DNA from: Rhodanobacter fulvus Jip2
GTDB taxonomy: Bacteria; Pseudomonadota; Gammaproteobacteria; Xanthomonadales; Rhodanobacteraceae
Assembly (NCBI RefSeq): GCF_000264315.1
Contig: NZ_AJXU01000065.1
Coordinates: forward strand, 1 to 64,000
Length of the DNA: 64,000 bases
Reading direction: 5' to 3'
A model generated the notes under the pieces. That model saw only the letters and a list, made by a program, of their open reading frames with translations. It made no database searches and had not been told where the DNA came from. The position numbers and the translations under genes are program-made. This document shows positions 7,470 to 61,468 of the stretch, one piece after another; positions within the stretch are counted from its first letter, which is position 1, and every line of letters begins with the position of its first letter.

Positions 7470-7541
7470 GGTCTCGTTCCCTGATTCATGGCTGTCGCCG
7501 GCGTGGTTGGGCGGCGGGATGGCGGTTGCCTGGCGCTTTCG

Positions 7542-7813: not shown

Positions 7814-9520
7814 TCAGTACTGGTAGACCAGCTGGAAACCGGTGGCCGGCCGGCGTGTTTCCAGCACGCGGCCGCCCGTCAGTGCCCAGCCCGCGAAAAC
7901 ATCCCAGCCGAGGCGGCCGAGCTGGCCGCGCAGGCCGAACACGCCGCCGCGCAGCGTGTGTTCGGTGCCGTAGATGTTCTTGCTGGGGCCGCCGATGTGG
8001 CCCACGTCGAAGCCGACGTATAACGCCGCCGGCAAAGCGCCCAGCGGCGCGGTGAGGGTGTTGCGCCAGGTCCAGCCGCGCTCGGCGGCCAGGGTCTGTT
8101 CGCCGTCGAAACCACGTACGGTGTAGCGACCGCCCAGGGTGATGAACTCGGATCCGTAGAGGGTTTCGCCGCTGCATTGCGCATGCAGTTCGGACATCCA
8201 TTGCAGCGGCAGCGCGCCGGCCTGGAAAGGCAGGTTCAGGGAAGCATCGAGTATCCACAGCCGGTAGCCGAAGCTGGGATCCGAGGGCTGGTGCCCGGGA
8301 GCATCGCGCTGGCCACCGAACCAACTCACGCCGCGGCGCTGCGCCAGCCGCAGATCGAGCTGGGCGGCGCCGAGATACTGGCGTTGCACCAGCGCCAGCT
8401 CCGCCGAGGTGACGTCACGCCGCTGGGAGGTCACCTCGGTGTCCTCGATGAAGCTGTGTGCCTTGCGCTTGCCCAGGCGCAGTTCCAGCGAGGTCTTGCC
8501 CGAACCGTTGCGGTGGATCATGCGCTGCACGGTGAGGTCGGTGGTGCGCGACTTGCCGCGGCTGAGGAAGGTGGTCTGGTAGCCGGCCACGGTCTGGTGA
8601 TAGGCGTAGTCGTAGGCCGACAGGGTGAACAGCCAGCGGCCGAACGGCACCGAATAGCTGGCGTTGACGCCGCGCGTGCCGTGGCCGGTGCTTTGCCACA
8701 CGTCGTGGTTGTAGCCCAGCGAGAGGATGTCGTTGATGCCCAGCGGGTTGTCGAATCCCGCGCTGATGCCGGCTTGCCCGCGCCCAGTGGCGCGCGAGCC
8801 TGCATCGTCCAGCGTGGCCACCAGATGCCAGGGCCGGCTGCGCTTGACCGTGATGACGAGGTCGGAGGCGCCGGGCACGTCGCCCGGCGCGATGTCGATG
8901 TTCACGTCCTGCGAGGGCACCCGCTTCATCTGCTCCAGCCCCTGCTCGACGTCGCGCAGGTTGAGCAGGTCGCCCGGGCGCATCGGCAGGGCGGTCTGCC
9001 ACGCGCCAGCCAGCGTACTGTCGGCATAGCGGATACGGCGGATGACGCCGGGCACCAGGGTCAGATGCAGCACGCCGGTGGACAGGTCCTGCGCGGCCAC
9101 ACCGACGCGGGTGGTGACGTAGCCGCGATCGATGATCAGGTCCGACGTGCGCCGCACGACCAGCTCGATGCCCCGGCGACCCGCGCACTTGCCGGCATAG
9201 CGATCGAGATAGCGTTGCACCCAGGCGAAATCGGCCAGGTGCGGCCCTTCCAGACGCACGCTGTCAAGCCGGAAGCAGGGTTGCTCGGCCGGCAGATCGG
9301 TACGGTGAAAGTCGGTGCCGCGCGAGGTGGTCAGCCGCACATCCGGCGTCGCACGCTGCTGCTGCCGCGCCTGCGCCTCGCGCTGCGCGCGTTCGCGTTG
9401 CTCCTGCTGATCGAGCGTGGTCTGCGCCAGGCCAATGCATGGCAACAAGGCGATGCATGCAAACAGCCATTTTGCGGTCGCAACACTGCGCCGAGACGTG
9501 GAGATCCCTTCCGTATCCAA
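7814..9520 (-). CDS. Two-partner secretion outer-membrane transporter (TpsB, ShlB/FhaC family)
   Basis: Omp85-superfamily pore that exports the haemagglutinin encoded downstream. The chosen start is TTG 9520, giving a proper signal peptide (arginine-containing n-region, then WLFACIALLPCIGLAQ). An in-frame ATG at 9592 would add 24 residues that look untranslated. A Gln/Arg-rich linker (QQEQRERAQREAQARQQQ) follows the signal peptide, then a POTRA-type region around FRLDSVRLEGPHL and VTVKRSRPW. A 16-strand-type barrel follows, with the family motif GRYTVRGFDGEQTL, ending in the aromatic residues YQY. Length of about 568 residues is normal. It precedes tpsA in one transcriptional direction. Confidence 0.92.
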   Translation of the reverse strand: MDTEGISTSRRSVATAKWLFACIALLPCIGLAQTTLDQQEQRERAQREAQARQQQRATPDVRLTTSRGTDFHRTDLPAEQPCFRLDSVRLEGPHLADFAWVQRYLDRYAGKCAGRRGIELVVRRTSDLIIDRGYVTTRVGVAAQDLSTGVLHLTLVPGVIRRIRYADSTLAGAWQTALPMRPGDLLNLRDVEQGLEQMKRVPSQDVNIDIAPGDVPGASDLVITVKRSRPWHLVATLDDAGSRATGRGQAGISAGFDNPLGINDILSLGYNHDVWQSTGHGTRGVNASYSVPFGRWLFTLSAYDYAYHQTVAGYQTTFLSRGKSRTTDLTVQRMIHRNGSGKTSLELRLGKRKAHSFIEDTEVTSQRRDVTSAELALVQRQYLGAAQLDLRLAQRRGVSWFGGQRDAPGHQPSDPSFGYRLWILDASLNLPFQAGALPLQWMSELHAQCSGETLYGSEFITLGGRYTVRGFDGEQTLAAERGWTWRNTLTAPLGALPAALYVGFDVGHIGGPSKNIYGTEHTLRGGVFGLRGQLGRLGWDVFAGWALTGGRVLETRRPATGFQLVYQY

Positions 9521-9789
9521 TCCTTTCCCCTGTTGCCGATGCCGCACCGCCGGACCGGGCGGAAGACGCCCCGATGCGCGACCGGAAAACATTACACGCG
9601 ACCCGACAAGAACCGAACGTATCCCGACCAGAAAGTGTCGACGGCGTCACACTTTTGCGGAAAACCATGTCGGTCCGCATCGGCGGGGCATCGGGTCGAA
9701 CGCCGTGGACGTGGCGGTGCGCAATCCACGTAAGCTATGCGCTCCCAAGCCGGCGCAGGCCGGCCTTACTTGCTGCGGAGTATCTGTTC

Positions 9790-49199: not shown

Positions 49200-49326
49200 T
49201 ATCGGCACAGGCTTCCACTCCCCCTGCGATCCGTTTCCCGCCTTCTGAACAAGGCACACCGCCCGCTCGCCATCCATCGCCTCTCCCCCGGCGAATTCGA
49301 TAGACGCACCATTGGATTATCCCCCG

Positions 49327-51642
49327 GTGACCAACAACAACCGTCGCCCCGTTCGCCCGGGGCCGCGCCATGCGTCCGCGCCGCGCCGGCGCGCCGCAAC
49401 GCCCTGCCTTCTCGCCCTTTGCATTGCCGGCGTGCTGGCCGGGCCATCTCATGCCGACGAACCGGTGGCGGCAACCACCCTGTTGCCGATATCCGTCCAG
49501 GCGGAAGCCAGCCCGCTGGTAAATGCGCCCGCGGTCGATGTGCAAGTCAGCCGCGAGCGGCTGCAGCAGCAGAACGTCAGCAGCAGCGCGGACGCACTGA
49601 AGTACGTGCCCAACATGATCGTGCGCACGCGCTACATCGGCGATCCGAACGCGGTGATCAGCGGGCGCAATGCCGGCACGCTGCAAAGCGCACGCAGCCT
49701 GGTTTATGCCGACGATCTGCTGCTGTCCAACCTGATGACCAACGGCTGGGACGGCGCCCCGCGCTGGGGCATGGTGGCCGCCGAGGAAATCGGCGCGGTC
49801 GACGTGCTGTATGGGCCATATTCCGCGCTCTACCCCGGCAATTCTTTGGGTACCACCGTGCTGATCCACACCGTGCTGCCGCAGCATCGGGTCGCCAGCG
49901 TGAGCACGCAGCTCATGAGCCAGGATCATCACGATGCCTACGGCAACGAAGGCCACTACAGTGGCCACCAGGTCGCCGCCACTCTGGGTGACAAACACGG
50001 TCGCTGGAGCTGGTTGCTGGCGTTGAGCCGGCTGGACAACAAAGGCCAGCCCATGCAGTACGCCACCGCCATCCGCGGCGGTGATGCCGCCGCCGCGATA
50101 CCGGTCAGCGGCGCCACGCTCGATCGCAACCCGAACGGCACACCACGGCTGGTCTACGGCGCCAACAGCATCGAGCACACCGTGCAGACCCAGGCCAAGC
50201 TGAAAGTTGGCGTGGATATCAGCGACCATGTCGCCGCGTTGTTCACCCTCGGCGGATGGCACGACGACGCCGAGAATCGTACCCGCAGTCTGATCCGCGA
50301 TGCGGATGGCCAACCAGTCAGCAGCGGTGTGATCAACGCAGCGGGCCAGACCTGGACGTTGCCGGCCAGTGGCCTTGCGCCCACGTCGCGGCGCGACACA
50401 CACGTGCTCTACGGCGCGCAGTTGAAGGGCCGTTTCGACAACGGCTGGCACTGGAGCGCGGCGGCCAGTCATTACGATTTCCTGCGCTCGGAGGCAGCCA
50501 CCGCAACGCAGCCCGAAGCCGGCACGCCGCGTGGCGGCCCCGGCACCATCGCCGACCTGCGCGGCTCCGGCTGGTCCACGTTCGATCTGCGTAGCTACGG
50601 TCCGCTCGGCCAGCAAAACACGTTGTATGCCGGCGTGCATGACGACCGCTATGTGCTCGATACCCGCGTGCGCCATGCCGGCCACTGGCGCGGCGATGCG
50701 GACGGTGCGCCGGTCAGCGCGTTCGGCGGGCGCACCCGTACCCGCGCCATCTATCTGCAGGACGTGTGGAGCCTCGCGCCGGCCTGGGCGCTGACCCTCG
50801 GCGGACGGCTGGAGCAGTGGCGCGCCTACGGCGGCGTGCTCGGCGACGCAAGCAACACGCTGCGCTACGCGGACCGTCAGCGCACGGATTTCTCGCCCAA
50901 GGCCGCGTTGAGCTGGGACATCGCCGACGTCTGGCAACTGCGGCTGGCGCATGGCAGGGCGGTGCGCTACCCGACGGTGGCCGAGCTGTTCCAGGGCACG
51001 ATTTCCGGCAATGCCATCGTCAACAACAATCCCCGGCTCAAGCCCGAGATCGACGACTCCACCGACCTGACCCTGAGCCGGCAGACGAGCCAGGGCCACT
51101 GGCGCATCTCGCTGTTCCAGGACCGCATCGCCGACGCGCTGTACGCGCAGACCGATATCACCGTCACACCCACCGTCACCAGCGTGCAGAACATCGACCT
51201 GACGCGCGTGCGCGGCGTCGAAGGCGAACTGGTCGCGACCGATGTGTGGATAGCTGGGCTCGACATCTCCGCCAGCCTCGCCCTCAACGACGCCAAGACA
51301 TTGCGCGACCGCCAGTACCCGAGCGCCAACGGCAAGGTCTTCCCGCGGATCCCGAACATCCGCGCCAGCCTGTTCGCCGATTACCGCTTTGCGCCGCAAT
51401 GGGATGCCTCGCTCGGCATTCGTCACTCCGGCCATCAGTACGGCACGTTGAACAACAGCGATTTCGTCGACACCTACGGCGCGGTAAGCCGCTTCACCGT
51501 GGTCGACGCGAAGCTGCGCTGGCGCTTCTCGCCGCGCTGGACGGCGGCGCTCGGCGTGGACAACCTCACCAACGCCCGTTACTGGGTCTACCACCCGTAC
51601 GCCGGCCGCACCGCGTTTGGCCAACTGCGCTGGGAGTTGTGA
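49327..51642 (+). CDS. TonB-dependent outer-membrane receptor
   Basis: About 771 residues from GTG 49327; TTG 49312 is an alternative and no start has a strong RBS. Signal peptide with Arg-rich n-region and CLLALCIAGVLAGPSHA. Plug domain: LPISVQAEASPLVNAPAVDVQVSRERL and VDVLYGPYSALYPGNSLGTTV. The beta-barrel follows, ending GRTAFGQLRWEL. Imports a scarce ligand using TonB. No siderophore gene is nearby; the neighbouring copper enzymes and NsrR-like operator suggest copper or a cofactor for denitrification (inference). The stop overlaps the next gene. Confidence 0.92.
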   Translation: MTNNNRRPVRPGPRHASAPRRRAATPCLLALCIAGVLAGPSHADEPVAATTLLPISVQAEASPLVNAPAVDVQVSRERLQQQNVSSSADALKYVPNMIVRTRYIGDPNAVISGRNAGTLQSARSLVYADDLLLSNLMTNGWDGAPRWGMVAAEEIGAVDVLYGPYSALYPGNSLGTTVLIHTVLPQHRVASVSTQLMSQDHHDAYGNEGHYSGHQVAATLGDKHGRWSWLLALSRLDNKGQPMQYATAIRGGDAAAAIPVSGATLDRNPNGTPRLVYGANSIEHTVQTQAKLKVGVDISDHVAALFTLGGWHDDAENRTRSLIRDADGQPVSSGVINAAGQTWTLPASGLAPTSRRDTHVLYGAQLKGRFDNGWHWSAAASHYDFLRSEAATATQPEAGTPRGGPGTIADLRGSGWSTFDLRSYGPLGQQNTLYAGVHDDRYVLDTRVRHAGHWRGDADGAPVSAFGGRTRTRAIYLQDVWSLAPAWALTLGGRLEQWRAYGGVLGDASNTLRYADRQRTDFSPKAALSWDIADVWQLRLAHGRAVRYPTVAELFQGTISGNAIVNNNPRLKPEIDDSTDLTLSRQTSQGHWRISLFQDRIADALYAQTDITVTPTVTSVQNIDLTRVRGVEGELVATDVWIAGLDISASLALNDAKTLRDRQYPSANGKVFPRIPNIRASLFADYRFAPQWDASLGIRHSGHQYGTLNNSDFVDTYGAVSRFTVVDAKLRWRFSPRWTAALGVDNLTNARYWVYHPYAGRTAFGQLRWEL

Positions 51643-52826
51643 TGGCGCACCCATGGTCTTTGCCGCGCATGCTGACGGTGGTCGCGCTGGCCCTGTTGCC
51701 CCTGACCCTTCCCGCCCGGGACATGACGCCGTCCGCCGCCCCGGCGCTGGGCGCCAGCGCGGCCTTCGATACGCTGGGCCGGCTGTACGTGGTCGACACG
51801 GCGGATGGCCACGTGCGCTTGCGTCGCTCCGACGATGAGGGCACCACCTTCACCGTGCCGGTAAACGTGAACACGACCGCCGAGCCGATTTATGCCGAAG
51901 GCGAGAACCGGCCGAAGATCGCGCTCGGCCCGCACGACGAGCTGTATGTGAGCTGGTCGCAGCCGCGCGCGAAACCATGGACCGGTTTCGTCCGCTTTGC
52001 CCGCTCGCTGGATGGCGGCGACCATTTCTCCGCTCCGTTGACCGTGCACCGCGACCGCCGCGAGATCACCCACCGCTTCGACGCGATGGCCGTGGACGGC
52101 CACGGCCGCGTGGTCATCGCCTGGATCGACAAGCGCGACCTGGAAGCGGCCAACGCCGCGAACAAACCCTATGAAGGCGCGGCGACGTACTACAGCTGGA
52201 CGGATGACGGCATCCACTTTGTCCCCGAGCGCAAGCTGATGGACCAGAGCTGCGAATGCTGCCGCATCGCGCTGGCACGAACGGCGCAAGGTGGCGTGGC
52301 GGCGTTCTTCCGGGGCATCTGGGACGACAACCGGCGCGACCACGCATTTGCCGAACTGCGTACGGACGGCCAAACGGGTCGGGCCACACGCGCCACCTTC
52401 AGCGACTGGCGGATCGCCGGGTGTCCGCATCAGGGACCGGGCCTGGCGATCGGTGCCGACGGTGTCCGCCATGCCGTCTGGTATGAGGCCACACACGGCC
52501 CCACGCTCTGGTACGGCCAGCTCGATCCGGGGCATACGCCGCGCCACAAGCTGGCGCTCGCCTTTGCCGGTGCGGCCCATGCGGACGTTGCGACAGACGG
52601 CCCGAATGTGTGGCTGGCCTGGAACCAGATCGATGCCGCCGGCTACGCGCTTGTCGTGCGCACATCCACGGATGGCGGCGTGCATTTCAGTGCACCGCGA
52701 ACCCTGGCGCGCAGCCACGGCGACGTGGGCTCACCCCAATGGCTGCTGCACCAGCATCGCGCCTATGTGGCATGGAACACCGCGACCGGCTTCCGACTTC
52801 TCAAGCTCGATGGAGCACCCCGATGA
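51642..52826 (+). CDS. Exported Asp-box (BNR/sialidase-like) beta-propeller protein with CxCC motif
   Basis: 394 residues. Signal peptide (MLTVVALALLPLTLPA). At least four Asp-box repeats: RSDDEGTTF, SLDGGDHFSAP, TDDGIHFVP and STDGGVHFSAP, indicating a propeller. No sialidase Arg triad is evident. C204-E-C206-C207 (DQSCECCRIA) is unusual for an exported propeller and could bind a soft metal such as copper or be the target of the thioredoxin-like protein next door. It overlaps both neighbours, so TonB receptor, propeller and thioredoxin form one unit. Confidence 0.85.
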   Translation: MAHPWSLPRMLTVVALALLPLTLPARDMTPSAAPALGASAAFDTLGRLYVVDTADGHVRLRRSDDEGTTFTVPVNVNTTAEPIYAEGENRPKIALGPHDELYVSWSQPRAKPWTGFVRFARSLDGGDHFSAPLTVHRDRREITHRFDAMAVDGHGRVVIAWIDKRDLEAANAANKPYEGAATYYSWTDDGIHFVPERKLMDQSCECCRIALARTAQGGVAAFFRGIWDDNRRDHAFAELRTDGQTGRATRATFSDWRIAGCPHQGPGLAIGADGVRHAVWYEATHGPTLWYGQLDPGHTPRHKLALAFAGAAHADVATDGPNVWLAWNQIDAAGYALVVRTSTDGGVHFSAPRTLARSHGDVGSPQWLLHQHRAYVAWNTATGFRLLKLDGAPR

Positions 52827-53281
52827 AACCCTGGTTGTTTTTGCTCGCCTTCGCCCTGCCGGGCCTTTCCGCCGCCGCCTCGCTGCAGCCGCTGAACGCC
52901 GATGCCGTCGATGTCCTGTTGCAACCGCCAGCCCGGGGCGAGCGCTTCATTGCGCTGTGGTCACTGGATTGCGCGTACTGCGAGGCCAACATGCAGACCC
53001 TCGCCCGGCTGCAGCAAGCGCATCCGGAGCGGATCGAGCTGGTGACCGTCGCCACCGACAGCATTGCCCAGCGCGACGCCATAAGCGCGCGCCTGGATGC
53101 CGCCGGCATGGAGCAGTGGCCGGCCCGCGCCTATGCCGACACGACGCCGGATCGCATCAATTACCTGATTGATCCGCAGTGGGGAGGCGAGATGCCACGC
53201 ACGCTGGTGATCCGTGCCGATGGTTCGCGCCGCGGCCTCAGCGGCGCACTGACACCGGAACAATTGGCCAAGCTGCGTTGA
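52823..53281 (+). CDS. Exported thioredoxin-like (TlpA/redoxin) protein
   Basis: 152 residues. Signal peptide MKPWLFLLAFALPGLSAAAS, then a thioredoxin fold with FIALWSLDCAYCEANMQTLARL (C50-x2-C53) and cis-Pro in GGEMPRTLVI. Probably reduces cysteines in the periplasm, perhaps the CxCC of the preceding protein or a copper site. ATG 52823 overlaps the previous stop by 4 nt. Convergent with nsrR, 20 bp apart. Confidence 0.87.
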   Translation: MKPWLFLLAFALPGLSAAASLQPLNADAVDVLLQPPARGERFIALWSLDCAYCEANMQTLARLQQAHPERIELVTVATDSIAQRDAISARLDAAGMEQWPARAYADTTPDRINYLIDPQWGGEMPRTLVIRADGSRRGLSGALTPEQLAKLR

Positions 53282-53301
53282 TGCGCGCAAGGCTGCCCGA
53301 T

Positions 53302-53904
53302 TCAGGACGCGCCGCGCTTCGCCTTGGGCCCGGGCTTGCGCGCCGCGGCCACCGCCGACTTGCGCGCCGGGGCCACGGCGGGTTTGCGCGCGGTACCCAG
53401 CGCCGGTTTGCGCGCAACCTTGGCCACCGGCTTCGCGGGCAAGCGACGCCCACGCGCCGGCTCATCGACCGCGAATCCCGAAAGCAGTTCGTTCAAGACG
53501 CCCTGGTTCTGCGCCAGGTCCGCCAGGGTATAGCTGTCCAGCACGGTGAAGAACGCCACCCTGGCTTCATGCATGGCCTTCCTGAGCCTGCAGGCGGAAA
53601 CGATCACGCAATCGGCCTTGACCGGGTCCATGCAGGGTGCCGTCGCCATGTCGGGCTCCGTACGACGGATCAGCTCCCCCAGCAGTATCGACTCCGCCGG
53701 GCGCGCCAGCCGCAGCCCACCGCCCTTGCCCCGGGTGGTGGCCAGGTAGCCGGCCTGGCCCAGTTCATGGACCACCTTCATGAGGTGGTTCTTGGAAATG
53801 TCGTAGCTCTCGGCGATCTGCGCGATGGTTGGCAGCGGATCCGGCCGCACGGCAACAAAGATCAGCACCCGGAGGCAGAAGTCCGTGTATGTGGTCAGAC
53901 GCAT
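53302..53904 (-). CDS. nsrR: NsrR-type Rrf2 regulator (nitric oxide sensor) with basic C-terminal extension
   Basis: 200 residues from ATG 53904. HTH of the Rrf2 family (MRLTTYTDFCLRVLIFVAV..IAESYDISKNHLMKVVHELGQAGYLATTRGKGGGLRLAR), which is the NsrR opening. Iron-sulfur cluster cysteines C91, C99 and C105 (PCMDPVKADCVIVSACRL). Normal NsrR ends near residue 150; here a Lys/Ala/Pro-rich tail of about 50 residues (repeated ARKPA/ARKSA) follows, like histone H1 tails. Divergent from ncgABC-nirK, its expected target. Confidence 0.92.
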   Translation of the reverse strand: MRLTTYTDFCLRVLIFVAVRPDPLPTIAQIAESYDISKNHLMKVVHELGQAGYLATTRGKGGGLRLARPAESILLGELIRRTEPDMATAPCMDPVKADCVIVSACRLRKAMHEARVAFFTVLDSYTLADLAQNQGVLNELLSGFAVDEPARGRRLPAKPVAKVARKPALGTARKPAVAPARKSAVAAARKPGPKAKRGAS

Positions 53905-54156
53905 TGCATGCCCTTCACTGCCCTCGACGAATTGAACCGGTACCGCGTCTGCCGGAACGCGATGAACTGCATTGGCACCATCGTGGTCCGCACCGCCACC
54001 GTTCGCAATGCCGATCTCCGGATTGTAGCCGCCGCCCCGCATGGCGACCGTGAATGGACAACGGCGCGGGACGGAGGTTTCCGTACACATTGTCGCAGCG
54101 GCATCCGGCGGGCATGGATAAAAGGCCGCTCTCGATCATGCGTGGTGATGCCGGCG
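53905..54156. other. Non-coding upstream region of nsrR
   Basis: First part of the 695-bp nsrR-ncgA intergenic region. Frames running through it (for example an extension of nsrR to 54090) lack a coding look and an RBS. It should contain the nsrR promoter, but I cannot place it with confidence. Confidence 0.5.
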
Positions 54157-54170
54157 CTGACATCGATCAA
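54157..54170 (+). promoter_or_regulatory. Candidate Fnr/Anr/Dnr box
   Basis: CTGAC-ATCG-ATCAA differs at one position from the TTGAC/T-N4-ATCAA pattern bound by Anr/Dnr-type activators. Its centre lies about 70 bp upstream of the predicted ncgA transcription start, a class I activator position. This would fit activation in low oxygen or by NO. Suggestive only. Confidence 0.45.
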
Positions 54171-54198
54171 TGCAACCGCTGTTTTCCGCCTTTTTTCC

Positions 54199-54253
54199 TT
54201 GCCAACAAAGGCGCATGCACATAAGATGTATTACACATACATCTTATGTGCAT
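54199..54253 (+). promoter_or_regulatory. ncgA promoter overlapped by NsrR operator
   Basis: TTGCCA (-35, 54199-54204), 17-bp spacer, TAAGAT (-10, 54222-54227). The -10 lies inside a perfect 17-bp-arm inverted repeat: ATGCACATAAGATGTAT (54215-54231), spacer TACAC, and its reverse complement (54237-54253). Its core AAGATGTAT..ATACATCTT fits the known NsrR pattern AAGATGYATTT..AAATRCATCTT. Repressor binding would occlude RNA polymerase; NO would relieve it. Confidence 0.82.
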
Positions 54254-54599
54254 GATGTCGCAGCCAGGCCCGAAGACCCGTGATGACAGCCTCTCCACCG
54301 CCGTACCGAATGCCCGTGAAAAAGCAGGGTTGCCGGACTGCGGGCATGCCGCGCCCGGTGATCACGTCGCACTCTCCCGCGCACCCTGAAATCCTGAATC
54401 CATCCTTGCGCCTGCAAGGCCATTCATGGAAACGGGACCTCGGTACCAGCGAGCTTTCCGGCTAGCCGGCATCGCATCGCGATGACCAAGTCATCGCAAG
54501 GGAAATAACGCAACTACCTCTGCACGCATGGGCGCATTTCGTCCTTGCGGAGGAAGCCTGCGCCAAAAATTCTTCCACCGCCCGAAAGGAAACCACCAC
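54254..54599 (+). other. Long untranslated leader of ncgABC-nirK
   Basis: About 345 bp between operator and ncgA start, unusually long for this compact genome. Contains a short inverted element (GCATCGCATCGCGATG) and stretches that may fold, but no ORF with an RBS and no riboswitch class that I recognise. Confidence 0.45.
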
Positions 54600-55619
54600 G
54601 TGAAATGCCTGATCGTCGCAATGGCCATGATGGCTCTTGCCATTACCGACTCAGCGGTTGCCGCAAGTCGAAGTTTCGAGATGAATATCCAGGACACGGA
54701 AATCACCCTGGTCAATAACCAGAAGTACCACACGTTCGCATTCAACGGACAGGTGCCGGCACCGCTTATCTATGCCGACGAAGGCGACGACATAACCGTT
54801 GTCGTGAACAACCTGACCGCAATGAATCACACCATCCACTGGCATGGCCTTTTCCAGAAAAACAACTGGAAGATGGATGGTGTACCGGGCGTGACGCAGG
54901 AGGCGATCAAGCCGGGTGAAAGCTTCACCTATCACTTCAAGGCCGAGCCGGCCGGGACGCTCTGGTACCACTGCCACGTCAACACCAACGAGCACGTGGA
55001 CCTGCGCGGCATGTGGGGTCCGTTGATCATTCGACCGAAACACCCGACGGCCCTGGAAAAGACCGTCACCAAGGACTTCATCCTGATGTTGTCCGAGTGG
55101 GACTCCAAATGGGCCGATAAACCCGGTTCCGGCGGCCTCCCCACCGACCAGCCCGATTATTTCACCATCAACGGGAAATCGTACCCGGAAGTGCAGCCGA
55201 TTCGCATCAAGGAAGGCGACGTGGTGCGTATCCGCCTGATCGGCACCGGTGACAAGGTGCACAGCATCCACATCCACGGCCACGATTTCCTGATCGCATT
55301 CAAGGATGGCCAGCCGCTGAAAAGCCCGATCGTGGCGGACACCGTGCTTATCGGCCCGGGAGAACGCTACGACCTGATTTTCAAGGCGGACAACCCGGGT
55401 CGCTGGATGGTCCACGACCATATCGAAAGCCACACGGTCAACGGCAACCAGCCGATGGGCGGAATCATGACCGTCATCGAGTACGAGGGTATTCCCAACG
55501 ACCCCTGGTATGAGCTCGGCGACCACAAGTTTGTGCCGAACTTCTATTACGAAGAATCACTGAAGAAAGGTCCCGGCTTCTACAACGCCGACGTATTCCA
55601 CGGCAAGGTCATCGAGTAA
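54600..55619 (+). CDS. ncgA: Two-domain multicopper oxidase NcgA
   Basis: 339 residues from GTG 54600 (AAGGA 9 nt upstream). Signal peptide ending SAVAA. Domain 1: H80-x-H82 (HWHG) and HCHVNTNEHVDLRGMWG with Cys125, H132 and M138 as the type 1 copper site. Domain 2: HSIHIHGHDF (about 221-230) and HDHIESH, where HDH replaces HCH, so this domain has no type 1 site. That is the type C two-domain oxidase pattern described from Nitrosomonas europaea. First gene of ncgABC-nirK; required there for nitrite/NO tolerance. Confidence 0.88.
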   Translation: MKCLIVAMAMMALAITDSAVAASRSFEMNIQDTEITLVNNQKYHTFAFNGQVPAPLIYADEGDDITVVVNNLTAMNHTIHWHGLFQKNNWKMDGVPGVTQEAIKPGESFTYHFKAEPAGTLWYHCHVNTNEHVDLRGMWGPLIIRPKHPTALEKTVTKDFILMLSEWDSKWADKPGSGGLPTDQPDYFTINGKSYPEVQPIRIKEGDVVRIRLIGTGDKVHSIHIHGHDFLIAFKDGQPLKSPIVADTVLIGPGERYDLIFKADNPGRWMVHDHIESHTVNGNQPMGGIMTVIEYEGIPNDPWYELGDHKFVPNFYYEESLKKGPGFYNADVFHGKVIE

Positions 55620-55637
55620 CCAGGGAGGTTGAATCAC

Positions 55638-56336
55638 ATGCGATCACTATCAGTTGTTTTTCTTGCGTTGCTGGCTGGCCTCGGCATGGCGGATACCGCC
55701 ATGGCAGCGGGCGGAGCGGATGTTCTTCAGCAGCAATGTTCATCGTGTCATGCACTGACCAAACCGGCGGACGCCAGCCTCGACCGGCTATGGGAGCGCA
55801 AGGGTCCTGACCTCTATTACGCGGGCGTGAAGTTCAATCGCGAGTGGCTGGAGGCATGGCTGCAGAACCCGACCACCATCCGGCCCGGTGGCGTCATGTA
55901 TGCCAAGGCGATCAAGGCCTCGGCGGACAAGACCGCCGACACCATCGACACCGGCAAGCTCACGCCGCACGTGAAGCTCGGCAAGGCCGATTCGGCCGCG
56001 GCGGCCGACGCGCTGATGAAGCTCGGTGCCGATCTGAACCTGGTGCAGAAGGGTGCGTTCAAGAACGGATCACCCGGCCCGATGGCCAAGATGCTGTTTT
56101 CCAAGCTGCGCGGCTGTTCGTCCTGCCATAGCGCAAAGGGCGGCGACGGTGGCCGCTCCGGGCCGGAGCTCGGCGACGCCGGCAGCCGGCTGCAGCCGGA
56201 TTTCATGGTGGCCTACATCAACAACCCGCAGAAGTTCGATCCGCACATCTGGATGCCGACGCTCGGCCTGACCGATGCCGACGTACAGAAGTTGACGGGA
56301 TACCTGTTGACCCTGAAGCACACGGAGGCCCAATGA
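55638..56336 (+). CDS. ncgB: Dihaem cytochrome c NcgB
   Basis: 232 residues from ATG 55638 (GGAGG upstream). Signal peptide ending near TAMAA. Haem motifs C34-S-S-C37-H38 and C160-S-S-C163-H164, one in each half, with Met-containing segments (GGVMYAK, WMPTL) able to provide sixth ligands. Periplasmic electron carrier, probably passing electrons between NcgA/NcgC, the respiratory chain and NirK. Overlaps ncgC by 4 nt. Confidence 0.88.
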   Translation: MRSLSVVFLALLAGLGMADTAMAAGGADVLQQQCSSCHALTKPADASLDRLWERKGPDLYYAGVKFNREWLEAWLQNPTTIRPGGVMYAKAIKASADKTADTIDTGKLTPHVKLGKADSAAAADALMKLGADLNLVQKGAFKNGSPGPMAKMLFSKLRGCSSCHSAKGGDGGRSGPELGDAGSRLQPDFMVAYINNPQKFDPHIWMPTLGLTDADVQKLTGYLLTLKHTEAQ

Positions 56337-56704
56337 ACATTCGCATGCTATGCCTCACCGGCGTCCTGTCGCTGGCCGGCCTGTCCACCTTCCCGGCATA
56401 CGCCGACGATGCCACGACCCGCAGCGCCAGGGTCTACGACACCTACTGCGCGCAATGCCACGGCGCCAATCGCGACGGCAACGGCATCAACAGCACGGCC
56501 ATGGCGGTCAAGCCGCGCGACCACACCGACACCAAGGGCATGGGCGACACGCCCGATGAGGAGCTGCGCAAAGCCATCAAGAGCGGCGGCGGCGCCGTGA
56601 ACAAGTCGGTCTTGATGCCGCGCTGGGACGGTGTGCTCAGCGACGCGGAAATCGACGGCCTGGTCAGCTACCTGCGCGTCGTCAGCAAGAGTGGCAGCAA
56701 GTGA
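56333..56704 (+). CDS. ncgC: Monohaem cytochrome c NcgC
   Basis: 123 residues. Signal peptide MNIRMLCLTGVLSLAGLSTFPAYA. Class I cytochrome: C39-A-Q-C42-H43 and probable Met ligand in KSVLMPRW, with the usual C-terminal helix (SDAEIDGLVSYLRVV). Likely the direct electron donor to NirK (inference from order and known clusters). Overlaps ncgB by 4 nt and is followed by nirK. Confidence 0.88.
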   Translation: MNIRMLCLTGVLSLAGLSTFPAYADDATTRSARVYDTYCAQCHGANRDGNGINSTAMAVKPRDHTDTKGMGDTPDEELRKAIKSGGGAVNKSVLMPRWDGVLSDAEIDGLVSYLRVVSKSGSK

Positions 56705-56736
56705 ACTCACCCAGCAATGCAGCAAAAGGCTACCCC

Positions 56737-57657
56737 ATGAAACTGAAGCATCTCAGCTACGCCCTCACCCTCGCCCTGGTTGCCGCCGGCAGCCTGCAGG
56801 CCAAGACGGTCGACATCACCCTGACCGCCAAAGAGGTGAGCCTGCCCATCGACAACAAGGGCACGATGGCCACCACGTGGACGTTCGACGGGCAAGTTCC
56901 CGGGCCGCTGGTACGGGTCACCGAAGGCGATACCGTCAACGTCACCCTGATCAACGACAAGGCCAACCACAACTCGCACTCGATCGACATGCATGCGTCG
57001 CAGGAAGACGTATTGACCGACTTCGAGCCGGTCAGCCCCGGCTCGGTCGGCAAGTACACCTTCGTGGCCAAGCACCCGGGGGTGTTCTTCTATCACTGCG
57101 GTGCCGACCCGATGATCCAGCACGTGGCGCGCGGCATGTACGGCGCCATCCTGGTCGAGCCGAAGGACAGCACGATGCCGAAGGCCGATCGCGAGTACGT
57201 GCTGGTGCAGTCCGAGCAGTACCCCAACCCGGAAAACGTGCCGGAGATGATGGCCAACAAGTGGAGCCATGTCGTCTTCAACGGCATCCCGTTCCGCTAC
57301 GACCCGGTGCACGACGAGGCGGCCAGCAAGATGCTGCAGGCCAAGCCGGGCGAACTGGTGCGCATCTACTTCGTGAATGCGGGGCCGAACGAGTTCTCGT
57401 CGTTCCACCCGATCGCCGGCATCTGGGAGTCGGTCTACCCCAGCGGCAACCCGAAGAACGTGCTGCATGGCATGCAGTCGTACGTGGTCGGACCTGGCGA
57501 CGCGGCAACCTTCGATATCCGGTCACCGAAGGAAGGCGCCAACGCGATCGTCTCCCACTCGTTGCGCCAGGCACTGACGGGTGCGATCGCCGTGTTGCAG
57601 TTCACCAATGATGCCGACCCGGCCATGGGCCACGGCGACAACATCATCGTGCGCTGA
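56737..57657 (+). CDS. nirK: Copper-containing nitrite reductase NirK
   Basis: Periplasmic NO-forming nitrite reductase, 306 residues from ATG 56737 (AAAGG upstream; the GTG at 56701 gives a poorer signal). Signal peptide ends at LQA. Type 1 copper: H81, C121, H129, M134. Type 2 copper: H86, H120, H274 (IVSHSL). Catalytic D84 (HSIDMH) and H224 (SSFHPIAG), equivalent to Asp98/His255 of the Alcaligenes enzyme. All ligands are present, so it should be active. The HPIAGIW form resembles AniA-type rather than Alcaligenes-type enzymes. Confidence 0.94.
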   Translation: MKLKHLSYALTLALVAAGSLQAKTVDITLTAKEVSLPIDNKGTMATTWTFDGQVPGPLVRVTEGDTVNVTLINDKANHNSHSIDMHASQEDVLTDFEPVSPGSVGKYTFVAKHPGVFFYHCGADPMIQHVARGMYGAILVEPKDSTMPKADREYVLVQSEQYPNPENVPEMMANKWSHVVFNGIPFRYDPVHDEAASKMLQAKPGELVRIYFVNAGPNEFSSFHPIAGIWESVYPSGNPKNVLHGMQSYVVGPGDAATFDIRSPKEGANAIVSHSLRQALTGAIAVLQFTNDADPAMGHGDNIIVR

Positions 57658-57670
57658 GGCGATGGCTGGT

Positions 57671-57697
57671 CCGGAGGCCGGCACCGCCGGCCTCCGG
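57671..57697 (+). terminator. Hairpin after nirK
   Basis: Perfect 12-bp stem CCGGAGGCCGGC / GCCGGCCTCCGG with ACC loop, 13 bp after the nirK stop; poor T-tract (GCTACCTTCGTT). May end the ncg operon or only partly separate it from ccmF, 168 bp further on. Confidence 0.6.
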
Positions 57698-57865
57698 GCT
57701 ACCTTCGTTGCCCACGCGGACGACGGACGACAACACCGCGTTGCCACGCTGCACAACACACCCCTTCTTTCTTGTCGTGGCCCGGCCACGGCGATGCATC
57801 CATCCCATGGCCCAGGCCCACGCCCGGAAACAACGCCGCAACGCCGCCGAACCGGATACCTTCCG

Positions 57866-59839
57866 ATGATGCCCGAACTGGGTCAATTCAGCCTGATTCT
57901 TGCCTTGCTGCTTGCCGCCGTGCAGGGCGTCGTACCGATCGTCGGCGCCTGGCGCGGCAGTCCGTCGTTGATGGCGGTGGCGCGGCCGGCGGCCGCGGGA
58001 CAGGCGGTTTTTGTCGCCGCGGCTTTTTTCATCCTCACCTACGGCTTTCTCACGTTCGATTTCTCGATTACCTACGTGGCCGACAACTCCAACCTCGCCC
58101 TGCCGTGGTATTACCGCGTTGCCGCGGTGTGGGGCGCGCACGAGGGATCGTTGCTGCTGTGGATCCTGATCCTCAACCTGTGGACGGTGGCGCTGGCCAT
58201 CTTCAGTCGGCAACTGCCACCGGCGTTCGCCGCGCGCGTGCTGGGTGTGCTCGGCCTGGTGGCGGTCGGTTTCCTTGCCTTCATCGTGTTCACCTCCAAC
58301 CCGTTCGCGCGGCTGCTGCCGATGCCGGGCAACGGCGCGGATCTGAACCCGGTGTTGCAGGACCCCGGCATGACCTTGCATCCGCCGGTGCTGTACATGG
58401 GCTATGTCGGTTTTTCGGTGGCCTTCGCATTCTCGATCGCCGCCCTGCTCGGCGGTGAGCTGGAACAGGCCTGGGTGCGCTGGGCGCGGCCGTGGACGAA
58501 TGCGGCGTGGGGCTTTCTCACCGGCGGCATCGTGGCCGGCAGCTGGTGGGCGTATGCGGAGCTGGGCTGGGGCGGCTGGTGGTTCTGGGACCCGGTGGAA
58601 AACGCCAGCTTCATGCCGTGGTTGATCGGCGTGGCACTGATCCATGCCCAGGCGATCACCGAGAAACGCGGCTCGTTTCGCGCCTGGACGATTCTGCTGT
58701 CGATCTTCGCGTTCTCGCTGAGCCTGCTGGGCACCTTCCTGGTGCGCTCGGGTGTGCTGACCTCGGTGCATGCGTTCGCCTCCGATCCGCGCCGCGGCGT
58801 GTTCATCCTGATCTTCCTGGGGATCGTGGTGGGCGGCTCGTTGCTGCTCTACGCGGTGCGCTCGCCGAAAATGATCGGCCAGGGGAAGCCTTTCGCGGTG
58901 GTGTCGCGCGAGACCGCCATCCTGGTTGCCAACCTGATGTTTGCCAGTGCGGCGGGGATGGTGTTGCTGGGCACGCTGTTTCCGTTGCTCAGCGACGCGC
59001 TGCAACTGGGCAAGGTGTCGGTGGGCGCGCCGTATTTCGGTTTCCTGTTCCCACTGCTGATGCTGCCGGTGGTGTTGCTGTTGCCGTTCGGGCCGCACCT
59101 GCATTGGGGCCGCGGTGACAAGGGCGCGCTCGCGCGCGTCGCCGGCCGCGCCGCGATCGGCGCGGTCAGCTGCGCGCTGGTCATGTGGGTGCTGGTGGAC
59201 GGGCAGCTGAAGGCGATCGCCGGCGTGGCCGCGGCCGTCTGGATCGGCACCGGCACCGTGCTGTTCGCGCTGAAGCGCTGCCGCGCGGTGCCGCGCGGCA
59301 GCCACTACCCGGCCGAAATGGCCGGCATGCTGCTGGCGCATCTGGGCGTGGGCGTGTTCCTGATCGGCGTGCTGCTGTCCGAACCGCTGGGCATCACGCG
59401 CGACGTGCGCATGGCGCCCGGGGAGACGCAGACGATCGGCAGCTACACCTTCCGCTTCGATGGCGTGCACGGCGTCGATGGCCCGAACTGGCACGCCGAA
59501 CAGGGTGCGGTCACGATCCTCGAGGGCAGCGACGTCGTGACCGTGATGCACCCGCAAAAGCGGGTCTACGCGCGCGGTCAGGTGCAGACCGAGTCGGCCA
59601 TCAACGCGGGCTGGCGGGGCGATCTTTATGTCGCGCTGGGCGAACCGATGCCAGGCGGGGATGTCGCCGGCGCCTGGACGCTACGGCTGTACCAGAAACC
59701 GTTCATCCGCTGGATCTGGTTCGGCGGGCTGTTCATGATGCTGGGCGGCTTCGTGGCCGCCGCCGACCGCCGCCTGCGCCATCCACGCACCGTGGCGGCG
59801 GTCGTGACGACGCCGGCAGTTGGGGAGTCGCTCGCATGA
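57866..59839 (+). CDS. ccmF: Cytochrome c maturation protein CcmF
   Basis: 657 residues from ATG 57866. Polytopic inner-membrane haem lyase component that attaches haem to apocytochromes with CcmH. Contains the WWD motif WGGWWFWDPVENASFMPW, the conserved NPVLQDPGMTLHPPVLYMGYV block and a C-terminal periplasmic domain (MAPGETQTIGSYTFRF). Upstream in-frame codons to 57581 overlap nirK's 3' region and are not credible. Head of ccmF-G-H-I, each overlapping the next. Confidence 0.96.
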   Translation: MMPELGQFSLILALLLAAVQGVVPIVGAWRGSPSLMAVARPAAAGQAVFVAAAFFILTYGFLTFDFSITYVADNSNLALPWYYRVAAVWGAHEGSLLLWILILNLWTVALAIFSRQLPPAFAARVLGVLGLVAVGFLAFIVFTSNPFARLLPMPGNGADLNPVLQDPGMTLHPPVLYMGYVGFSVAFAFSIAALLGGELEQAWVRWARPWTNAAWGFLTGGIVAGSWWAYAELGWGGWWFWDPVENASFMPWLIGVALIHAQAITEKRGSFRAWTILLSIFAFSLSLLGTFLVRSGVLTSVHAFASDPRRGVFILIFLGIVVGGSLLLYAVRSPKMIGQGKPFAVVSRETAILVANLMFASAAGMVLLGTLFPLLSDALQLGKVSVGAPYFGFLFPLLMLPVVLLLPFGPHLHWGRGDKGALARVAGRAAIGAVSCALVMWVLVDGQLKAIAGVAAAVWIGTGTVLFALKRCRAVPRGSHYPAEMAGMLLAHLGVGVFLIGVLLSEPLGITRDVRMAPGETQTIGSYTFRFDGVHGVDGPNWHAEQGAVTILEGSDVVTVMHPQKRVYARGQVQTESAINAGWRGDLYVALGEPMPGGDVAGAWTLRLYQKPFIRWIWFGGLFMMLGGFVAAADRRLRHPRTVAAVVTTPAVGESLA

Positions 59840-60378
59840 TGCGCACGCTGCCGCTGCCGGGCTTCGCCCTGCTCACCGCGCTGTTCGGTTTTGGCATCCG
59901 GTGGAACAGCCATCACGACCCGCACGAGGTGCCTTCGCCGCTGATCGACAAGCCGGCGCCGGCGTTCGTGCTGCCCCGGCTGGACCACCCCGGCCAGAGC
60001 CTCGACAAGACCTCGATGCTGGGCCGCCCCTATCTCGTCAACGTGTTCGCCAGCTGGTGCATCGCTTGCGGCGAGGAGCATCCGGTGCTGATGACGGCGG
60101 GCCGCAAGCTCGGCATCCCGCTGATCGGCTACAACTACAAGGATGACCCGAGCGAAGCCAAGGCGTGGCTGGCGCGACATGGCAATCCGTACGACCAGGT
60201 CATCACCGACCGCAGTGGCCGTACCGCGATCGACTTTGGCGTGTATGGCGCGCCGGAGAGCTTCCTCGTCGATGCCGGCGGCGTGATCCGCTACAAGCAC
60301 ATCGGCCCGTTTACCGCCGAGCTGATCGCCACCGAACTCGCGCCGGCGATCGCCGCGTTGCGCAGGGAGGCGCCATGA
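59836..60378 (+). CDS. ccmG: Periplasmic thiol:disulfide oxidoreductase CcmG/DsbE
   Basis: 180 residues. N-terminal anchor, then a thioredoxin fold with W74-C75-I-A-C78 (FASWCIACGEEHP), GVYGAPESFLVD cis-Pro region and the DsbE GYNYKDDPSEAKAWL motif. Reduces the CxxCH cysteines of apocytochromes before haem attachment. Overlaps ccmF and ccmH by 4 nt. Confidence 0.94.
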   Translation: MMRTLPLPGFALLTALFGFGIRWNSHHDPHEVPSPLIDKPAPAFVLPRLDHPGQSLDKTSMLGRPYLVNVFASWCIACGEEHPVLMTAGRKLGIPLIGYNYKDDPSEAKAWLARHGNPYDQVITDRSGRTAIDFGVYGAPESFLVDAGGVIRYKHIGPFTAELIATELAPAIAALRREAP

Positions 60379-60803
60379 CGCGCCTGCTGTGGTGCCTGCT
60401 TGCCTTGTTCGCGGTCAGCGGCTGGGCCAGCGCCCAGGCGATCGATCCCCTGCCGTTCAAGAGCCGGGTCGAGGAGGTGCGTTTCCAGCACCTGACGAAA
60501 CAGCTGCGCTGCATGGTGTGCCAGAACGAGAGCCTTGCTGATTCCAATGCCGAGTTGGCGCGCGACCTGCGACACGCGGTGTTCGCACTGATGCAGGTGG
60601 GCAAGAGCGATGCGCAGATCAAGCACTACCTGACCGAGCGCTATTCCGACTTCGTGCTGTACGACCCACCCTTCCGACGCGGCACGTTGCTGCTCTGGCT
60701 GGGACCGATCCTGCTGCTGTTGCTGACCGCGGCCGCACTGATTGCCACGGATCGCGGCCGCATCCCATCCCGAACCCAGGCGCGACAGGAGGAACCATGG
60801 TGA
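60375..60803 (+). CDS. ccmH: Cytochrome c maturation protein CcmH (CcmL type)
   Basis: 142 residues. Signal peptide, then the LRCMVCQNESLADSNAELARDLR motif (C46, C49) and a C-terminal membrane helix (LLLWLGPILLLLLTAAALIA). It is the short form with the thiol domain only; the TPR part is encoded separately as ccmI. Helps reduce apocytochrome cysteines. Overlaps both neighbours. Confidence 0.94.
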   Translation: MTRLLWCLLALFAVSGWASAQAIDPLPFKSRVEEVRFQHLTKQLRCMVCQNESLADSNAELARDLRHAVFALMQVGKSDAQIKHYLTERYSDFVLYDPPFRRGTLLLWLGPILLLLLTAAALIATDRGRIPSRTQARQEEPW

Positions 60804-61468
60804 ACCTCGCTTTCATGGCCACGGCGGCCGTCATGGTGGTCGTCACGACGGCCGCCCTCGTTTTCCCGATGGTGCGAAAAAAGCGGGACGTCGGCGATTC
60901 GCATGGGACGCTCGGCTGGGTCGTGGCCATCGCCATCGTGCTCCCCACCGGCGCGCTGGGGCTGTACGCCATGCTCGGTACGCCCGCCGCGCTGGATCGA
61001 TCGGCCTACGCGGCTCCCAGCGACGTCGACAGCACGCTTGCACAGCTGCGCGCCGAGGCGCTGGAGCAACCCGATGCACTCCCGCCCTGGCTGCTGCTGG
61101 GTCGCGCCGCCGCCACCATGCAGCAACCGGATGTCGCGCTGGAGGCATTCGGTCACGCCCTGAAAATGGCGCCGGACGACCCTGACGTCATGGTGGCCTA
61201 TGCCGAAGCGATGGCAGCGAAAAATGTCGACCACCGGCTCGACAAGCCGACGCTGGCGTTGCTCGAACGCGCGGTAAGCCTCAACCCCCGGCACCAGCAC
61301 GGCCTGCTTCTGCTGGGCATCGCCGATTACCAGGATGAACGTTTTGCCGAGGCGGCGACGCGCTGGAAGCAGCTGCTGGCGGTGCTTCCGGCGGACTCCA
61401 GCATTGCCGACGCCATTGCAACCCAGATTGCCGACGCCGAGTCGCGCATGGCCGGCGCCCGGCCATGA
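60797..61468 (+). CDS. ccmI: TPR-containing cytochrome c maturation protein CcmI
   Basis: 223 residues, strong RBS (AGGAGG) before ATG 60797. Two membrane helices (FMATAAVMVVVTTAALVFP and LGWVVAIAIVLPTGALGLY) followed by TPR units (PWLLLGRAAATMQQPDVALEAFGHALKMAPDD; LLLLGIADYQDERFAEAATRWKQLL). Acts as apocytochrome chaperone. Shorter than most CcmI proteins. Last gene of the cluster; ccmABCDE are not in the window. Confidence 0.87.
   Translation: MVNLAFMATAAVMVVVTTAALVFPMVRKKRDVGDSHGTLGWVVAIAIVLPTGALGLYAMLGTPAALDRSAYAAPSDVDSTLAQLRAEALEQPDALPPWLLLGRAAATMQQPDVALEAFGHALKMAPDDPDVMVAYAEAMAAKNVDHRLDKPTLALLERAVSLNPRHQHGLLLLGIADYQDERFAEAATRWKQLLAVLPADSSIADAIATQIADAESRMAGARP

Follow-up and report, generated by a model that had tools for sequence, protein, structure and literature searches.

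A putative horizontally acquired ncgABC-nirK module with an adjacent second haem lyase in Rhodanobacter fulvus Jip2

The ncgABC-nirK locus

The stretch of DNA analysed here (the window) comprises the 64,000 nucleotides at positions 1 to 64,000 of contig NZ_AJXU01000065.1 of Rhodanobacter fulvus Jip2, and our subject is a cluster within it in which the genes for a multicopper oxidase, two c-type cytochromes and a copper nitrite reductase, ncgABC-nirK, lie next to a divergent nsrR-like gene and are followed by a second set of genes for the attachment of haem to cytochromes c. On balance, we lean towards reading this cluster as a horizontally acquired, NsrR-controlled module for tolerance of nitrite and nitric oxide (NO) that would bring its own cofactor supply. 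The core consists of the following features:

53302..53904, minus strand: nsrR-like regulator gene of the Rrf2 family (PF02082, 116.9 bits; CX6CX5C)
54214..54254, no strand: 41-bp inverted repeat with perfect 18-bp arms, enclosing the NsrR-type operator
54600..55619, plus strand: ncgA, two-domain multicopper oxidase (PDB 3g5w, 496 bits; copper motifs)
55638..56336, plus strand: ncgB, dihaem cytochrome c (two CXXCH; Pfam cytochrome c)
56333..56704, plus strand: ncgC, monohaem cytochrome c (one CXXCH; Pfam Cytochrome_CBB3)
56737..57657, plus strand: nirK, copper nitrite reductase (PDB 4kns, 444 bits; invariant ligand residues)

All five reading frames are open and intact, and the spacing of the four genes that follow each other on one strand is operon-like (18 bp between ncgA and ncgB, a 4-bp overlap of ncgB and ncgC, and 32 bp between ncgC and nirK). 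The start of ncgA is likely the GTG at 54600, and for nsrR a start at 53904 is more likely than one at 54090. An original prediction, made for 53302-57657 from the letters alone, had described a multicopper oxidase, dihaem and monohaem cytochromes and a copper nitrite reductase with all its ligands, and both the motifs and the matches in PDB agree with it. NcgA, which finds 3g5w first and 2zwn second (424 bits), retains His-rich copper motifs and the HCH cysteine, whose roles we presume; NirK finds 4kns first, with the runner-up at 194 bits, and the residues that we take to be the type 1 and type 2 (T1/T2) copper ligands and the catalytic Asp and His are unvarying across a 10-row alignment. 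Both 3g5w and 4kns are, we assume, proteins of Nitrosomonas europaea. Against the NCBIfam model TIGR02376 the window NirK scores 191.5 bits, under the curated cut-off of 296.3, and because this cut-off is missed while 4kns is nevertheless the best PDB match, we read the protein as a member of a divergent clade of NirK.

The regulator clears the Rrf2 cut-off of 30 bits and, against the NsrR equivalog model, scores 125.3 bits, short of the cut-off of 182; its C-terminal tail (53302-53460) is rich in Ala, Lys and Pro and resembles histone H1. Inside the nsrR-ncgA intergenic region lies a predicted NsrR-type operator, AAGATGTATTACACATACATCTT, at 54223-54245, found with a pattern that we take to represent NsrR sites. 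It is the sole site at up to 2 mismatches in the 3.88-Mb genome, where the backwards pattern, used as a control, has 0 sites. Among the relatives described below, 70 loci have enough sequence ahead of ncgA, and 25 of these carry a box at up to 2 mismatches in the 700 bp before the gene, against a background of 4 sites per 750 kb elsewhere and 0 in the upstream regions for the reversed pattern. The control by NsrR that had been proposed would fit this operator, which also overlaps the second hexamer of a sigma70-like match at 54199-54227.

Distribution, gene order and origin

In N. europaea, ncgABC-nirK has the same gene order, a divergent nsrR and an NsrR-type box (2 mismatches), and nirK and ncgABC together give nitrite tolerance, nirK being harmful in ncgABC mutants (PMC5080386). 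The role of NcgABC "has not been fully elucidated" (PMC6967387). The nitrite-tolerance role suggested for the window would, by analogy, be consistent with these reports. The occurrence of the genes outside ammonia oxidisers, on which the original prediction had remarked, had already been published: Nitrobacter winogradskyi and the Loihi Zetaproteobacteria have ncgABC with nirK as the window does, so that the core is already known, whereas linked cytochrome c maturation genes, present in the window, are not mentioned in the available parts of these accounts (PMC5080386, PMC3603346). In the open-licence literature, no work was found that joins Rhodanobacter nirK with NsrR or a multicopper oxidase.

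Nor does the label "Nitrosomonas-type" describe the window copy well. Identity of the window proteins to those of N. europaea (L117; L and C numbers are our handles for loci and contigs) is 62% for NcgA, 52% for NcgB, 54% for NcgC, 64% for NirK and 50% for NsrR, and this copy is further from the window than those of Burkholderiales and Thiobacillus: the window NirK is 67-76% identical to Burkholderiales, 69-72% to Thiobacillus and 61-64% to Nitrosomonas proteins. These figures come from the best 80 of the 496 loci with a relative that a scan of GTDB species genomes gave; records near the window's own were possibly omitted from this set. The best 80 take in Oxalobacteraceae, Cupriavidus, Thiobacillus, Sphingopyxis, Phenylobacterium, an acidobacterium, Methylacidiphilum, Nitrosomonas and Nitrospirota, and their titles name no Xanthomonadales genus, several metagenome-assembled genomes (MAGs) being titled merely Gammaproteobacteria or Proteobacteria. 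Judged from these sequences, the ncg cluster is widespread in heterotrophs. The order ncgA-ncgB-ncgC-nirK, already noted for the window beside an NsrR-type gene, is kept in 72 of the 80 and is therefore not due to chance; the remaining 8 show B-C-nirK (3), C-nirK (1), B-C-nirK-A (1) or nirK alone (3), some of them being cut by contig ends. Of the 72 full-order loci, 31 have an NsrR/Rrf2 gene no more than 900 bp upstream of ncgA, with a divergent copy in 23 cases. Two loci of one family (L286 and L289, f207) have two ncgBC sets near each other, L289 also with tandem nirK, and three Nitrospira loci (L149, L156 and L157) have this NirK type with no ncg match within the available flanks.

Within the family, of which 147 genomes drawn from a larger group were sampled, the Ncg-type NirK is found in the window's genome and in none of the other 146, the runner-up match scoring 204 bits at 43% identity versus 702 bits for the window protein. 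At E values up to 1e-75, it occurs in 24 of 369 genomes of the class and 15 of 398 of the phylum, the window's genome being counted each time. Gene trees were built from 74 rows (the 72 full-order loci, L211 and the window) by fast searching; they carry no branch support and were rooted at the midpoint for drawing. The NcgA, NcgB, NcgC, NirK and concatenated trees all recover an identical set of 18 rows, made up of the window, 16 Burkholderiales and a single Steroidobacteraceae MAG; in three of the five (NcgA, NcgB and concatenated), Cupriavidus is the sister of the window. The four gene trees are strongly correlated (Mantel r 0.81-0.88; 0 of 999 permutations as high), and pairs of them have 34-39 of 71 splits in common. 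Because the 146 other family genomes have no Ncg-type NirK and the window falls into one Burkholderiales-dominated set in five trees, horizontal transfer of the cluster into this host, as originally surmised, appears well supported. The base composition says little on this point, since only ncgA is clearly low in G+C (0.567, with ncgB at 0.631, ncgC at 0.659, nirK at 0.633 and the window at 0.669; by 2-kb blocks, 54-56 kb goes down to 0.583 and the remaining blocks span 0.645-0.710). A tblastn search of a plasmid collection with NirK at 1e-60 gave no match, so a plasmid vehicle is not demonstrated, and the window has no tRNA gene as a marker of an insertion site.

A second haem lyase and its System II counterpart

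On the same strand, 211 bp past nirK, begins a second ccmFGHI set:

57667..57702, plus strand: G+C-rich hairpin after nirK with no T run, a possible terminator or mRNA stabiliser
57869..59839, plus strand: second ccmF, haem lyase (CcmF_C 350 bits; WWD-type motif intact)
59836..60378, plus strand: gene for a ccmG-like thioredoxin (WCxxC), overlapping ccmF by 4 bp
60375..60803, plus strand: ccmH (LRCxxC; CcmH 147.1 bits), overlapping ccmG by 4 bp
60797..61468, plus strand: gene for a ccmI-like protein, overlapping ccmH by 7 bp, 40% identical to the gene after ccmFGH on contig C51

The motifs of System I for cytochrome c maturation are all found (WWD-type in CcmF, WCxxC in CcmG, LRCxxC in CcmH), with roles that we presume. 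A further CcmF of the same genome is encoded on contig C51, clustered with ccmG, ccmH and ccmI. Two complete CcmF are found in one of the 147 family genomes, the window's alone; three other genomes with two matches hold partial pieces on separate contigs, and one genome has none. In a CcmF tree of 31 rows, the C51 copy groups with its genus. That the window CcmF arose by recent duplication of the C51 gene is disfavoured, the window protein being 76-77% identical as against 89-92% for the C51 copy to its genus; a clade of the window CcmF plus the genus is rejected by the approximately unbiased (AU) test (p 0.027), a value to be taken with caution as a long branch is involved.

The Burkholderiales relatives provide a parallel. 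ResB, of the System II for haem attachment, lies 4.5-5 kb downstream of nirK, past cusBA, in 14 of the 80 loci, 61 of which had 5 kb of downstream sequence, and clusters of the form ncgABC-nirK-cusBA-resB(-ccsA) occur in Duganella, Cupriavidus, Herbaspirillum, Massilia, Mitsuaria, Inhella, Paucibacter, Pelomonas and others. The gene next to ResB clears the CcsB/CcsA cut-off in L199, and a CcmF-like (WWD-protein) match follows in 11 of 12 Burkholderiales loci that were extended. Two nearly full-length ResB are present in all 12 Burkholderiales ncg host genomes searched (one with an extra short third). When the 12 linked copies were placed in one tree with their 12 housekeeping counterparts and 6 further sequences from relatives, a 100/100 branch parted the linked from the housekeeping copies. 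Among 60 genomes, Duganella rivi and relatives, an Ncg-type NirK and an additional full ResB coincide in two genomes and are absent from the others, one of which has two ResB matches that are a single gene in two pieces; as both carriers are Duganella, they represent one lineage and not two independent cases.

These clusters are like the window in the core quartet (NirK up to 76%), in a second haem-attachment machine and, in some, in the genes for a TonB receptor, a propeller and a TlpA-like protein, and unlike it in having System II ResB (with a CcsA-like gene) for System I CcmFGHI and in the presence of cusBA. The N. europaea locus has no CcmF, CusA/B, ResB or TonB match within the flanks examined, and its host (G919) has one CcmF. 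A linkage of ncg to a second haem-attachment machine was not found in the portions of the open-licence literature that were available, where nirK with ResB and cytochrome c biogenesis led to work on anammox bacteria. A further possibility, which we rate as less likely than not, is that ncgABC-nirK travels with a private, host-matched machine for cytochrome c maturation, in which case System II ResB-CcsA would have been replaced by a System I CcmFGHI paralogue after entry into a System I host.

Receptor, propeller, thioredoxin and copper genes

Upstream of nsrR sits a trio of overlapping genes (by 1 bp between the first two and by 4 bp, ATGA, between the last two):

49312..51642, plus strand: TonB-dependent outer-membrane receptor (Pfam TonB barrel 161.7 bits)
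51642..52826, plus strand: secreted beta-propeller (BNR-like) protein with conserved CxCCR and CPHxGP motifs
52823..53281, plus strand: TlpA-like periplasmic thioredoxin (CAYC motif; homologues at 30-32% in L199, L202 and L210)

The label TlpA-like is our assumption from the CAYC motif, the frame that holds this gene having no Pfam match. Comparison of folds matched this protein to propellers such as lectins, glycoside hydrolases and sialidases at low identity, so that no function can be assigned to it; the CxCCR and CPHxGP motifs, beside a thioredoxin, possibly form a metal or redox site. TonB homologues at 30-42% identity lie beside ncg in L108, L110, L112, L115 and L125 and in the extended loci L199, L202, L208, L209 and L210, and the end of L132 has a short TonB match. 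This amounts to 6 of the 80 named loci (one of them by the short match) and, downstream, 5 of the 12 extended Burkholderiales loci, in 4 of which set the propeller and in 3 TlpA are found as well; the upstream stretches of ten of these genomes yielded nothing new save a Paucibacter TonB already counted. The trio is downstream, partial or absent in the Burkholderiales clusters, as opposed to upstream of nsrR in the window. In L110, L112, L115 and L125 a presumably PepSY-like membrane protein accompanies the TonB receptor.

The cluster as a whole may be wider than 53302-57657, extending over about 49312-61468. Since possible genes of cofactor supply lie outside the former interval, the term "self-contained", used in the original prediction, may be truer than could then be known.

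CusBA follows nirK in 35 of the 80 loci. A single linked CusA was looked at; its alignment with E. coli CusA reaches 1178 bits, as compared with 520 for ZneA, and it keeps what we take to be the metal-site methionines. Together with the TlpA-like protein and TonB receptor close by, and with c-type cytochrome assembly reportedly being a copper target (so the title alone of Durand et al. 2015), this could point to a module that primarily handles copper in the periplasm, with NcgA as a Cu(I) oxidase and only a secondary part for NirK. We consider such a module quite improbable here: the window cluster has no cusBA match, the operator is of the NsrR type, and the TonB receptor, tried as a copper receptor of the TIGR01778 type, scores 34 bits against a cut-off of 472. 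No open-licence work was found that joins nirK with copper toxicity and cytochrome c maturation, or nirK with cusA and NsrR.

Elsewhere in the window, 7814-9592 encodes a two-partner secretion pore of the ShlB/FhaC type, for which the minus-strand region 1-7500 may, as a guess, hold the candidate large partner.

Host context, proposed function and alternatives

Two further NirK-like proteins are encoded in the host genome: on contig C18 a NirK fused to a cytochrome, which at 375 bits clears the NirK cut-off, and on contig C33 (L194:8121-10103) a 660-aa fusion of a hydrophobic N-terminal part (no Pfam match), a NirK-like domain and a cytochrome c. The genome also has relatives of qNOR and cNOR and a third NorB-like protein. 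Long-frame NirK-like matches (611-850 aa, 41-45% to the window NirK) occur in 12 other family genomes. It seems unlikely, from gene content, that the window NirK is the sole route of nitrite reduction in this host. With NcgB and NcgC as plausible electron donors, and with the qNOR and cNOR relatives and other NirK-like proteins at hand, NirK and NcgBC could be imagined as an energy-conserving branch of denitrification, which we hold to be unlikely, given that it would be redundant with the cytochrome-fused NirK on C18 and that the control element found is of the NsrR type; the presence of two other NirK-like proteins and of the qNOR and cNOR relatives likewise disfavours a primary respiratory role.

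For the tolerance module that we prefer, the following chain of events can be envisaged. NsrR would keep the ncg promoter shut until NO derived from nitrite damages the iron-sulphur cluster of NsrR, whereupon NcgABC and NirK would enter the periplasm. The cytochromes NcgB and NcgC would supply electrons to NirK, which would remove nitrite, and NcgA would hold the NO or redox load tolerable, either as an oxidase on the same cytochromes or by acting on NO or Cu(I); the NO would pass on to the NO reductases of the genome. The module would bring or recruit a second haem attachment for NcgB and NcgC, namely CcmFGHI here and ResB-CcsA in the Burkholderiales relatives, and the outer-membrane receptor, propeller and thioredoxin may serve metal supply. 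That CcmFGHI attaches haem to NcgB and NcgC, and is expressed together with nirK, we infer from the adjacency, the rarity of a second CcmF and the ResB parallel; the arrangement is seen once, and the hairpin weakens the link.

Several observations weigh against this interpretation. As regards the core, AU tests reject, for each gene, the topology of every other gene and the concatenated one; the congruence that had been looked for thus holds as a correlation and fails as identity, and the operon would have moved largely, but not strictly, as a unit. The promoter itself counts for little because the sigma70-like matches are at chance number (2 found versus 2.1 expected from shuffles in the 13 kb scanned). 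Identity between the trio and its counterparts is no more than 30-44%, and no trio was found in the regions examined of the Cupriavidus loci, which are sister to the window in three of five trees. As regards the haem lyase, the window CcmF is a long-branch paralogue in its tree. The hairpin in the 211-bp gap between nirK and ccmF might end the transcript: the RNA fold of 57655-57720 has -45.9 kcal/mol (z -4.87), a value that none of 200 shuffles reached, and the structure is possibly a terminator, a stabiliser or an attenuator, while a terminator scan of the gap listed no terminator-like site. CcmF has no match in the flanks of the 80 named ncg loci, so that its adjacency to ncg is known once, and 32 more distant NirK loci of the class and phylum (11-19 kb each) have neither CcmF nor ResB alongside (CusBA is found in 3 of them). 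Finally, a CcmF match is present in 26 of 36 further ncg hosts searched, of which one has two full copies and the other 25 have no second one; a private haem lyase is therefore not generally needed.

It follows as a real, if minority, possibility that the ncg-nirK operon is genuine and the second ccmFGHI an unrelated paralogue that came to lie beside it by chance, as the single instance of the adjacency, the gap with its strong hairpin, and the lack of CcmF beside the 80 and 32 other loci would suggest. Such a coincidence would have to account for the fact that the sole genome of 147 with two complete CcmF is also the sole one with an Ncg-type NirK, the two being adjacent and co-oriented. It would also have to account for ResB-CcsA, which does the same job: in 14 of the 80 relatives this lies past nirK and cusBA, and in those genomes that were checked it is a second copy.

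Implications

One branch of ncg clusters carries a paralogous haem-attachment machine, which goes with ncg in the genomes checked and points to the protection of cytochrome c assembly as a part of the defence against nitrite and NO. The locus of R. fulvus may exemplify an operon in which the maturation factor varies with the type of host. If true, the host-matched swap would represent a modular exchange of assembly factors in a transferred redox operon, by which haem attachment would be sustained under NO or copper stress.

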